Below the pieces are notes generated by a model. The model made no database searches and was not told where the DNA came from. It was given only the letters and a program-made list of their open reading frames with translations. From Bdellovibrio bacteriovorus HD100 (GTDB lineage Bacteria; Bdellovibrionota; Bdellovibrionia; Bdellovibrionales; Bdellovibrionaceae): a DNA stretch of 64,000 nt. Numbering within the stretch: position 1 is the first letter of the stretch; each line of letters begins with the position of its first letter. This document shows, piece by piece, positions 9,471-13,101 of this stretch. The translations under genes and the position numbers were made by a program. The DNA is taken from assembly GCF_000196175.1 (NCBI RefSeq), contig NC_005363.1:2046001-2110000 (forward strand), read 5' to 3'.

Positions 9471-11087
9471 TTAAAGTTTTCGGATAACGGACTTGAAGAA
9501 GTCATTTCCTTTGTCATCGACGATGATAAAGGCCGGGAAGTCTTTGACTTCGATCTTCCACACAGACTCCATACCCAGTTCCGGGAAATCCAGCACTTCA
9601 ACTTTTGTGATGCACTCTTTGCCCAAACGGGCCGCCGGGCCGCCAATAGAGCCCAGATAGAAGCCACCGTACTGTTTGCAGGCTTCTGTGACCTGCGGGC
9701 TGCGGTTCCCCTTACCCAACATGATCATGGAGCCTCCCAGCGCCTGGAACGTCCCCACATACGGGTCCATTCGTTCACTGGTCGTCGGCCCGAAGGAGCC
9801 GGAAGCGTAGCCTTTTGGCGTCTTAGCCGGGCCCGCGTAATAGACTGCATAATCCTTAAAGTACTGAGGCACACCTTCGCCGCGATCGACTTTTTCTTTC
9901 AGTTTCGCATGAGCGATGTCGCGAGCCACGATCATGGGACCGCTTAACATCACCCGGGTCGCCACTTTTTGCTGGGAAAGAACCTTCAGCGTTTCCGCCA
10001 TCGGTTTGTTCAGATCAATTTCAATTGCTTCGGCGCTGGCATCCTTCAGGTGATTTGGCAGGTACTGCTCTGGATGAAGCTCCAATTGTTCCAGGAAGAT
10101 ACCGTCGCGGGTGATCTTGCCTTTGATGTTACGATCCGCAGAACAGCTGACGCCCACACCAATCGGGCAACTTGCTCCGTGGCGAGGCAGTCGGATCACA
10201 CGCACGTCGTGCACGAAGTACTTGCCACCGAACTGAGCACCGATGCCCGTTTCACGAGCCCACTGCTCGACTTGTTTTTCCATTTCAAGATCACGATAGG
10301 CCCGTCCGCCTTCGCTGCCTGTCGTCGGCAGACCATCCAGATAACCTGCAGATGCGTATTTCACGATCTTCAGCGTTTCTTCCGCCGACGTTCCACCCAC
10401 GCAAAAAGCCAGGTGATAAGGAGGACAAGCCGCCGTGCCCAAAGAGTTCAGCGTTTCGCGCACAAACTTTTCAAAACCTTCCGGATTCAGAACCGCTTTG
10501 GTTTTTTGATACAGATAGGATTTATTCGCACTGCCGCCACCTTTAGCCAGGAACAGGAAGTTGTACTCTTCGCCCTGCTCGGAATAGATGTCGATCTGGG
10601 CTGGCAGATTGCTGCCGGTATTTTTTTCTTCAAAGAAAGAAATCGGCGCCATCTGAGAAAAGCGCAGATTGCGTTTTTGATAGGTGTTGTAAATCCCTTT
10701 GGACAGGAATTCCTTGTCATCAGCCCCGGTGAACACGCGCTCCCCTTTTTTGCCGACAACAATTGCAGTTCCCGTGTCCTGACAGGAAGGGAACTCCATC
10801 TGCGCCGCGATCACCGCATTGCGCAGCAGATCCACCGCCACAAAGCGGTCATTTGGTGAAGCTTCAGGGTCCTGAAGGATTCTTTCCAGTTTTTCCAGGT
10901 GCTTTGGGCGCAACAGGTGCGAAACATCGCTCAAGGCCTCTTGAGCGAGCAGTTCCAATGCTTCAGGTTCAACAATCAGAACCTCGCGCTCGCCGATTTT
11001 TTCCACGCGCACGTGATCGGAAGAGATCTTTTTATATTGAGTCGTATCTTTTTGCTTTTCATAGAGGGGGAAGTATTTAAATGACAT
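9471..11087 (-). CDS. fum: Class I (iron-sulfur) fumarate hydratase
   Basis: Reversible hydration of fumarate to malate in the TCA cycle, using an oxygen-sensitive 4Fe-4S cluster. The 538 residues from ATG 11087 equal the size of FumA/FumB-type enzymes. Diagnostic segments include [69 protein letters not shown] and [20 protein letters not shown], covering both the N-terminal and the C-terminal (beta) halves in one chain. The frame runs on to 11306, but the added residues are Arg/Thr/Gln-rich, unlike any fumarase, and coincide with a strong inverted repeat, so they are rejected. No fumC-type gene is in the window. Confidence 0.95.
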
Positions 11088-11125
11088 GCAACTGAAAGTA
11101 GCATTGCGTCGTGTTCGCGCGCAAC

Positions 11126-11241
11126 CCTCGGTAGGCTGTGTTAGGTGGGCTATTTGGGTGGGACTTTGTGAGCCGCGATTGCGGCGGTTTTCTTGGGACC
11201 GGGTCTCTCTTCGCTGGAGAGTGGTCAGGAACCTACCGAGG
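11126..11241. ncRNA. Candidate multibranched structured RNA
   Basis: A perfect 10-base inverted repeat, CCTCGGTAGG (11126-11135) and CCTACCGAGG (11232-11241), closes a region of about 96 bases. Inside are further self-complementary pieces: GCCGC-GATT-GCGGC, GACC...GGTC enclosing CTCTC...GAGAG, and GGCT...AGCC. Together these give a plausible multi-hairpin fold on either strand. It lies between the divergently transcribed fumarase and MFS genes, outside both, and could be an independent small RNA or a fumarase leader. I do not see hallmark sequences of tmRNA, RNase P, SRP RNA or c-di-GMP riboswitches; a 6S-like RNA is not excluded. Confidence 0.45.
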
Positions 11242-11328
11242 TTAGAAGGCTTCGTTTGTGACGTCTCCTTCTGAAACACAACATATCGCCCTGGACCTAT
11301 AAGCACAAAGTCATAATTTTTACCGATT

Positions 11329-11347
11329 CCATAAGTTTTGCTTATGG
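11329..11347. promoter_or_regulatory. Palindrome CCATAAG-N5-CTTATGG
   Basis: Perfect 7-base inverted repeat with a 5-base TTTTG spacer, in the non-coding gap between fumarase and the MFS transporter. Size and symmetry fit an operator for a dimeric regulator or a small hairpin. No regulator can be named. Confidence 0.3.
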
Positions 11348-11389
11348 ATAAATCAGGGGTCCGATTAAACAGATTTGAGGATATTGATC

Positions 11390-11440
11390 ATGAACTTTTT
11401 GCAGCGTATCACAGAGAGGGAGAAATAAAACCCCTCTCTG
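11390..11440 (+). promoter_or_regulatory. Possible leader: 12-codon ORF plus hairpin
   Basis: ATG at 11390 behind TGAGG opens a 12-codon frame (MNFLQRITEREK, stop 11426-11428). Its end overlaps a 9-base perfect hairpin, CAGAGAGGG (11412-11420) with CCCTCTCTG (11432-11440). It precedes the MFS gene by 120 bases and has the geometry of a translated leader or attenuator. There is no T-run after the hairpin, so this is tentative. Confidence 0.22.
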
Positions 11441-11559
11441 GAACCAGTTTCCGGGCTCCCTAACACAATCTTGAAATAACTTCGGGGCTCCCGGCGGCTC
11501 TTTAGATTGCAAAGTGGCTGATTTTCCTTTAGCTTCCTCGAAATTTTACCGGAGGTTCC

Positions 11560-13101
11560 ATGGCATTATTACTGGTCAGCGCCTGTCTGTTCGCGGTTAT
11601 CTTCTTGTACTTCAAGAACAACCCGCTGGGACATTCACGCAAGTTCATGATTCGTCGTTTCGTTAACTGGTTCCCTCTGGGTATGACATATGCATTCTTG
11701 TATATGGGCCGATACAATCTGAACGTTTCCAAAAACGCCCTGGGCGACATGATGACCAAGGAGCAGTTCGGTATCATCTTCGCGGCCGGCACGATCACTT
11801 ACGGTCTTTCTTTCCTTCTGAATGGACCGATCGTTGATAAAATCGGCGGAAAAAAAGGGATCATCATTGCGGCCCTGGGCTCATCCATCATGAATCTTTT
11901 GATGGCCGGTGCAACGTACCTGTACATGATGGGCACACTGAAAACCAACATCGTGGTGGCATATTCAGTATTGTTCGCTCTGAACATGTTCTTCCAATCC
12001 TACGGTGCCGTTTCCATTATTAAGGTTAAAGCATACTGGTTCCACGTTCGTGAACGCGGTGTTTTTGGCGCGATCTTCGGTACTTTGATTTCCTTCGGGG
12101 TTTACTTTGCCTTCGACTGGGGTCAGGCGATTGTTGAAGCTTCCAAGCTGCAGTTGGGCCATGAACCTACAGCCTTCCAAAGCTTCATCCGTCACATCTT
12201 CGCGATCGACACGGGCGTGACTAATGCGACCTGGCTGGTGTTTGCCATCCCGGCCTTCCTGCTTCTGTGCTGGGCTTTGATCGACTTTGTTCTTTTGAAA
12301 GACTCCCCGGCTGAAGCCAACTTCGGCGATTTCGATACAGCTGACGCATCTTCTGACTACGACGATTCCAATGTTAAAATCACTATCGGCTTCATGCTGA
12401 AAAAGATCTTCACCAACCCGGTGATGATCACCATCGCCCTGGTGGACTTCACTTCTGGTGTTCTGCGCAACGGTATCATGCAATGGTATCTGGTGTTCGC
12501 CCACGAGATGAAAGACAAGGACGCGGTGTTCTTTGAAGGCTCTCAGTTCTTTATCAAAAACTGGGGTCTGTTGCTGTGCATGACCGGCATCTTCGGCGGT
12601 TTCATGGCCGGCATCATCTCTGACCGTATGTTCCAGTCCCGCCGTGGTCCTCCTGCGGCAATCAACAATTTCATCATGATCCTTTTGTTGATCGTGATGG
12701 CATTCAATCTGATGAGCAACCCGACGGTTGTGGGTATTGCCGCGATCATGATTACTCTGACAGTTATCGGCGTTCACTCTTTGATGTCCGGTACTGCAGC
12801 TGCTGACTTCGGTGGTAAGAAAATGACGGCAACGGCTTCCGGCATCGTGGATGGTTGCGTGTACCTGGGCTCTGGTATCCAGTCCCTGGCGATCGGTTAC
12901 CTGTCTCACAAGAGCTGGTCTTACTGGCCGTTGTTCCTGATCCCCTTTGCGGTGATGGGTCTTCTTCTTTCCTTGCGCATGTGGAATGAACTTCCGAAAG
13001 CGACCAAGAAATACATCGAAGAGATCGAAAAAGCGGAAGAGAAAGCTCAGAAGCTGGGCACCACCACGGTGGGCAGCTCTGACCCGACTCCGACCACATA
13101 G
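11560..13101 (+). CDS. MFS transporter, organophosphate:phosphate antiporter (GlpT/UhpT) type
   Basis: Inner-membrane carrier of 513 residues with about twelve membrane segments. The motif LYMGRYNLNVSKNAL after helix 1 and the G-rich loop FLLNGPIVDKIGGKKGI after helix 2 match the OPA branch (GlpT, UhpT), which exchanges sugar-phosphates or glycerol-3-phosphate for phosphate. An extra N-terminal hydrophobic segment (about 1-18), a long middle loop rich in Asp/Ser (about 255-275) and a charged tail make it longer than GlpT (about 450). CCGGAGG precedes the ATG. A strong terminator follows. Uptake of host-derived phosphorylated metabolites is a reasonable guess only. Confidence 0.85.
   Translation: MALLLVSACLFAVIFLYFKNNPLGHSRKFMIRRFVNWFPLGMTYAFLYMGRYNLNVSKNALGDMMTKEQFGIIFAAGTITYGLSFLLNGPIVDKIGGKKGIIIAALGSSIMNLLMAGATYLYMMGTLKTNIVVAYSVLFALNMFFQSYGAVSIIKVKAYWFHVRERGVFGAIFGTLISFGVYFAFDWGQAIVEASKLQLGHEPTAFQSFIRHIFAIDTGVTNATWLVFAIPAFLLLCWALIDFVLLKDSPAEANFGDFDTADASSDYDDSNVKITIGFMLKKIFTNPVMITIALVDFTSGVLRNGIMQWYLVFAHEMKDKDAVFFEGSQFFIKNWGLLLCMTGIFGGFMAGIISDRMFQSRRGPPAAINNFIMILLLIVMAFNLMSNPTVVGIAAIMITLTVIGVHSLMSGTAAADFGGKKMTATASGIVDGCVYLGSGIQSLAIGYLSHKSWSYWPLFLIPFAVMGLLLSLRMWNELPKATKKYIEEIEKAEEKAQKLGTTTVGSSDPTPTT

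Follow-up and report, generated by a model that had tools for sequence, protein, structure and literature searches.

What occupies the DNA between the fumarase gene and the MFS transporter gene of Bdellovibrio bacteriovorus HD100? The window analysed here is a stretch of 64,000 nucleotides, bases 2,046,001-2,110,000 of one 3,782,950-base contig (genome G000), and positions below are those of the window. A sequence-only reading had described 11126-11241 as a multibranched small RNA of no known class and with poor coding potential. The comparative data agree with this description and support it: the feature is a structured RNA, a point on which hardly any doubt is left. It lies on the minus strand, between the minus-strand fumarase gene and the divergent plus-strand MFS gene.

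Parts of the RNA and its surroundings

Hairpin P0 stands at the 5' end of the RNA. The 10-base repeat forms stem P1, which closes a domain containing the inner hairpins P2 and P3 and a C-rich strand that stays unpaired. Together with the flanking genes and candidate promoter elements, the parts are as follows.

9471-11087, minus strand: fumarase (fumarate hydratase) gene, PF05681 and PF05683
11095-11100, minus strand: TACTTT, candidate fumarase -10 element, 13 nt before the ATG
11119-11124, minus strand: TTGCGC, candidate -35 element of the fumarase promoter, seen by eye
11126-11135, minus strand: closing stem P1, 3' arm; fold, perfect repeat and covariation
11143-11163, minus strand: unpaired tandem C-rich motif, UCCCACC...GCCCACCU; hardly any variation by column in 23 loci
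11172-11185, minus strand: hairpin P3 (GCCGC-AAUC-GCGGC); 99.2% of cells paired
11197-11226, minus strand: hairpin P2 (GACC/GGTC and CTCTC/GAGAG); fold and covariation
11232-11241, minus strand: closing stem P1, 5' arm; fold, perfect repeat and covariation
11244-11272, minus strand: hairpin P0 (AGAAGG...CCUUCU), predicted in 24 of 24 loci, a count made without a shuffle control; stem sequences differ
11282-11287, minus strand: GATATG, predicted -10 element of the RNA promoter, at a constant distance from the palindrome
11330-11346, minus strand: palindrome CATAAG-N5-CTTATG, a probable transcription-factor site of the RNA promoter; ATAAG-N5-CTTAT in 24 of 24 loci
11560-13101, plus strand: divergent MFS transporter gene, PF07690

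The perfect 10-base inverted repeat of the earlier reading is present (CCTCGGTAGG at 11126-11135 and CCTACCGAGG at 11232-11241, with 96 nt between the arms), as are its two inner hairpins, GCCGCGATTGCGGC at 11172-11185 and GACC/GGTC with CTCTC/GAGAG inside 11197-11226. That description stands for the repeat and the inner hairpins; it named no strand, however, and it missed both P0 (~11244-11272) and the palindrome (11330-11346). Upstream of the MFS gene, at 11412-11440, there is a further perfect inverted repeat, of 9 bases with an 11-nt loop (CAGAGAGGG/CCCTCTCTG).

Fold, strand and covariation

Which strand carries the structure? The minus strand folds with a minimum free energy of -37.7 kcal/mol (z = -4.75), and none of 200 shuffles is equally low. 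The plus strand gives z = -1.24, with 25 of 200 shuffles equally low. A plus-strand RNA was set aside for this weaker fold; covariation prefers the minus strand only modestly. Read on the minus strand, G-U and A-C cells number 17 and 18 over all pairs, and 11 and 2 without helix P2b, which makes a modest strand test. Some single sequences fold no better than their own shuffles (L059, z = 0.19; L012, z = -0.58).

Do the arms change together in relatives? Compensatory changes, which the sequence-only reading had named as the evidence to look for, occur in P1, P2 and P3 alike. Plain MAFFT alignments gave poor consensus folds because of register shifts, and they were therefore replaced by two alignments fitted to a covariance model (A4 and A5), which hence lean towards the structure. 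A4 includes a partial second copy from genome G021 (locus L031) and A5 leaves it out. Across the 25 fitted sequences, 24 of them distinct, 93.4% of cells are paired, compared with a shuffled mean of 83.3% and with 35-48% for slid partners; double changes, where both sides are altered, are found in 19 of 24 pairs. A tree of the MFS genes covers 22 of the 24 genus loci (L006 and L019 have no usable MFS sequence). It carries 16 double-change branch events; slid partners give 0-4, and 200 sets of random partners average 0.88, with a maximum of 5. Four of the 16, all in P1 and all in the clade L013-L015/L020, represent one register shift. Examples of compensated stems are GACC/GGTC to GATC/GATC in L021 and CCTCTC/GAGAGG to CCCCT/AGGGG in L012, both in P2, and GCCG/CGGC to GCUG/CAGC in P3 of L020. 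The closing pair of P3 is U-A, C-G or U-G.

The most conserved letters of the RNA are unpaired. They form the pair of CCCACC repeats that lies between P3 and the 3' arm of P1, near-invariant and predicted to be single-stranded, as a conserved accessible seed would be.

Distribution in genomes

A DNA search of 59 genomes finds the block in 23 of the 24 Bdellovibrio-genus genomes at E ~1e-14 or better; the 35 genomes outside the genus give no match better than E 0.001. Covariance model R1, built from 23 loci and searched over 66 genomes of the family, matches all 24 genus genomes, where the weakest main copy, in G004, scores 86.7 bits. Among the 42 genomes of other genera it matches G035 alone, with an independent score of 27.6 bits (E 0.04 per genome). 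Model R2, searched over 140 genomes of the order, returns the identical 25 genomes. R2 was trained on G035, and its score there of 58.8 bits is accordingly not independent; matches outside the genus other than G035 reach at most 19.8 bits. Thirteen non-genus stretches with other palindrome sites, searched by R1 with filters off, yielded no convincing RNA (best 10.2 bits). The partial second copy in G021 (L031 1405-1543; G021:C1:2314704-2314842; 61 bits) keeps P3, the tandem motif and the 3' arm. Its 5' half is replaced, and short tandem repeats adjoin it.

The G035 sequence comes from another genus of the family. Folding by energy only gives P1, P2, P3 and a 3' hairpin in the same order, and minimum-energy and centroid structures are identical. 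P1 is GUUCUCC/GGAGAAC there, its letters unrelated to the CCUCGGU/ACCGAGG of the genus, yet paired. No P0 is seen at the corresponding place. The tandem motif is retained (UCCCACC-AUAAAA-UCCCACCU), as it is in L059 of G004, and the palindrome CATAAG-N5-CTTATG lies ~60 nt upstream of P1, at a distance to GATA one base longer than in the genus. With two palindromes and one tandem motif in this 4.2 Mb genome, the chance of their lying so close is estimated at about 1e-4. Fumarase is not among the neighbours, which are a GreA/Rnk-like gene and one without a Pfam match.

A predicted promoter for the RNA

In its 17-bp form the palindrome occurs only once in the HD100 genome. It resembles a LysR-type box. 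The distance from palindrome to GATA (GATAWG/T) is equal in all 23 loci measured; L059 has no GATA there. The -10-like element places the predicted start of the RNA near 11275. A simple sigma-70 scan found no promoter.

How might the RNA act?

The gene would span roughly 11275 to 11110-11126 on the minus strand, from a promoter that a dedicated palindrome-binding regulator would control. The transcript would fold into P0 and a three-way P1/P2/P3 domain holding an unpaired strand with UCCCACC and GCCCACCU. These repeats might then pair with G-rich (GGUGGG-like) stretches near the ribosome-binding sites of target mRNAs, the RNA acting in trans with no need of Hfq. A stand-alone minus-strand RNA gene of this kind, with its own promoter and trans action through the C-rich repeats without Hfq, has about an even chance of being right; the antisense mechanism taken by itself is tentative, at slightly under even.

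Unpaired repeats rich in C typically serve as seeds in small RNAs that work without Hfq. Hfq does not rise above the Pfam cut-off in HD100 (best 12.2 bits vs 27), and the same search passes the cut-off in five of 14 control genomes. Are there targets? The pattern AGGTGGG-N3-9-ATG, compared with its reversed control, occurs 39 v 14 times in HD100, 24 v 24 in G001, 24 v 21 in G014 and 20 v 22 in G017; for this one simple pattern there is thus an excess in HD100 only and none in the three relatives. The search gave 107 matches in the four genomes. The sequence around most of them was read in 30 loci and 71 stretches; a few that fall in the 6S locus or in the locus of the RNA itself were left out. 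Comparison of 57 peptides of at least 25 aa gives two gene pairs common to HD100 and G001, a protein read as Wzz-like and a small lipoprotein, while a third pair is two overlapping stretches of one gene. The two shared pairs are not evidence for targets. The Wzz-like gene, so called by reading (L178, L211), has AGGTGGGG before its ATG in both genomes and is a weak candidate target.

The main rival to antisense pairing is that the C-rich, G-poor strand binds a protein instead of mRNA, either as a rut-like Rho-loading site that ends the transcript or as a scaffold or sponge for a single-strand-binding protein. Of the 36 nt from P3 to the 3' arm of P1, 15 are C and 3 are G; the minus strand shows nothing terminator-like at 10900-11700; and the target tests just described gave nothing convincing. 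All three favour such a role. Rut sites, however, are not usually conserved letter for letter, and here the two CCCACC repeats are near-invariant and survive even in G035, where the letters of the stem do not. Protein binding is an unlikely explanation, though one of some weight.

A gene of its own, or a leader of fumarase?

Could the RNA instead act in cis on fumarase, as a leader or a riboswitch? Its location invites the idea: 22 of the 24 genomes of the genus have fumarase, and in these the RNA stands just upstream on the same strand. A leader should always be found upstream of its gene and be lost with it, but G014 and G015, of the genus, and G035 keep the RNA and have no match to this fumarase. 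Conversely, five genomes of other genera have the fumarase, and the four of these that were checked (all except G060) show no convincing R1 match upstream of the gene. In G015 (L114), small phage-like open reading frames begin a few hundred bases past the 3' flank of the RNA and fumarase is missing, as if DNA there had been inserted or exchanged.

A candidate promoter of the gene also lies no more than 13 nt from its ATG. TANNNT is found 12-15 nt before the ATG in 21 of 22 fumarase-bearing loci, for a loose motif expected by chance in an estimated ~6%, and by eye it usually stands behind TTGC at 16-18 nt. The TTGCGC of HD100 is TAACGC in L022, from a genome without fumarase, and TTGC is TAAC in the fumarase-less G014. 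These motifs suggest that fumarase is probably transcribed on its own, with almost no leader, from a start downstream of the RNA. Because the RNA persists without fumarase and the gene has this candidate promoter, the RNA is probably INDEPENDENCE from fumarase, a separate unit upstream of the gene. A riboswitch was set aside on the same grounds, and a leader function is improbable; that the RNA is a gene of its own, and not only a leader of fumarase, is held with good confidence.

A third possibility is a DNA-level element, an operator or recombination site in the shared fumarase-MFS promoter region, with no functional RNA. The 17-bp palindrome nearby would suit it, as would the foreign-looking DNA after the 3' flank in G015. 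Separate stems covary, however, and P1 of G035 has been rebuilt from other letters; the surplus of G-U over A-C outside P2b points the same way, modestly, as it vanishes with P2b included. An element of this sort is very improbable. Last, the stretch might encode a small protein or extend fumarase at its N-terminus, which is extremely improbable: the fumarase frame is indeed open through the feature in HD100, as the earlier reading had it (minus-strand frame 9471-11306), but the opening is not kept across loci, the length from P1 to P1, taken modulo 3, is 2, 1 and 0 in 11, 11 and 2 of 24 loci, no frame is free of stops in all 24, and fumarase homologues of other genera start at a similar position.

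Known RNA classes and earlier reports

Is the RNA already known under another name? The scan against Rfam, 6S included, that had been proposed for this locus found no family: Rfam 15 at the gathering score gives 0 matches in the window and six relatives, and between 10900 and 11560 none appears up to E = 5. 6S RNA (RF00013), a candidate considered in its own right, has no match in the window; the true 6S RNA is a separate gene (G000:182914-183093, minus strand; L062), and it is over the cut-off in 22 of 24 genus genomes. No earlier report was found in open-access papers, supplementary files and preprints aside.

Table 2 of Karunker 2013 has eight attack-phase small RNAs, growth-phase RNAs having been excluded for want of start-site data, and it lists none at 2,057,114-2,057,275 (PMC3627812). 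The coordinate frame was checked with a c-di-GMP-I match at 1,073,868-1,073,951, minus strand, which falls inside the merRNA interval published for HD100, 1,073,741-1,074,185 (PMC3627812); the contig thus has the HD100 coordinates. A growth-phase or constitutive RNA fits with absence from this attack-phase table. Kept throughout its genus, even by species that have lost the neighbouring gene, the RNA is a good candidate for a regulatory RNA not described before.

Significance

The RNA is found in every genus genome searched, with a conserved promoter signature. Throughout the genus it might regulate, without Hfq, the switch of the predator to growth: one dedicated transcription factor would control an RNA with two C-rich seeds in a closed three-way junction, acting on several mRNAs of the prey-growth phase. 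This larger proposal is doubtful. If true, a bacterial predator would have a conserved RNA that regulates its growth phase, and no such regulator was found described in the open-access literature. Very little is known of RNA regulation in predatory bacteria; the table of the transcriptome study offers eight attack-phase RNAs and no growth-phase ones (PMC3627812). Deleting the RNA would leave the coding sequence of fumarase intact, and the role of the RNA in the predatory cycle is therefore directly testable.

Comparison with known systems

6S RNA and the RNA described here are both small and structured and of about equal length, but 6S forms a long bulged hairpin, unlike the multibranched fold seen here. 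Bdellovibrio 6S contains, in the genomes looked at, CCCACCU, the heptamer of the tandem motif; this sharing is probably a coincidence. The merRNA and the attack-phase small RNAs of Bdellovibrio are likewise intergenic structured RNAs of the same genome, but they are sited elsewhere in it (PMC3627812). Metabolite riboswitch leaders similarly place a multibranched domain upstream of a metabolic gene; unlike them, the present RNA is kept where the gene is absent, and the gene has its own candidate promoter.

RsaE/RoxS of Staphylococcus and LhrC of Listeria are Hfq-independent small RNAs with C-rich seeds. The present RNA differs from these in that its repeats lie within a closed multibranch loop, it has no Rfam match and its targets are only conjectural. 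It resembles them in its conserved unpaired UCCC-type repeats, in a genome where no Hfq was found above the Pfam cut-off.
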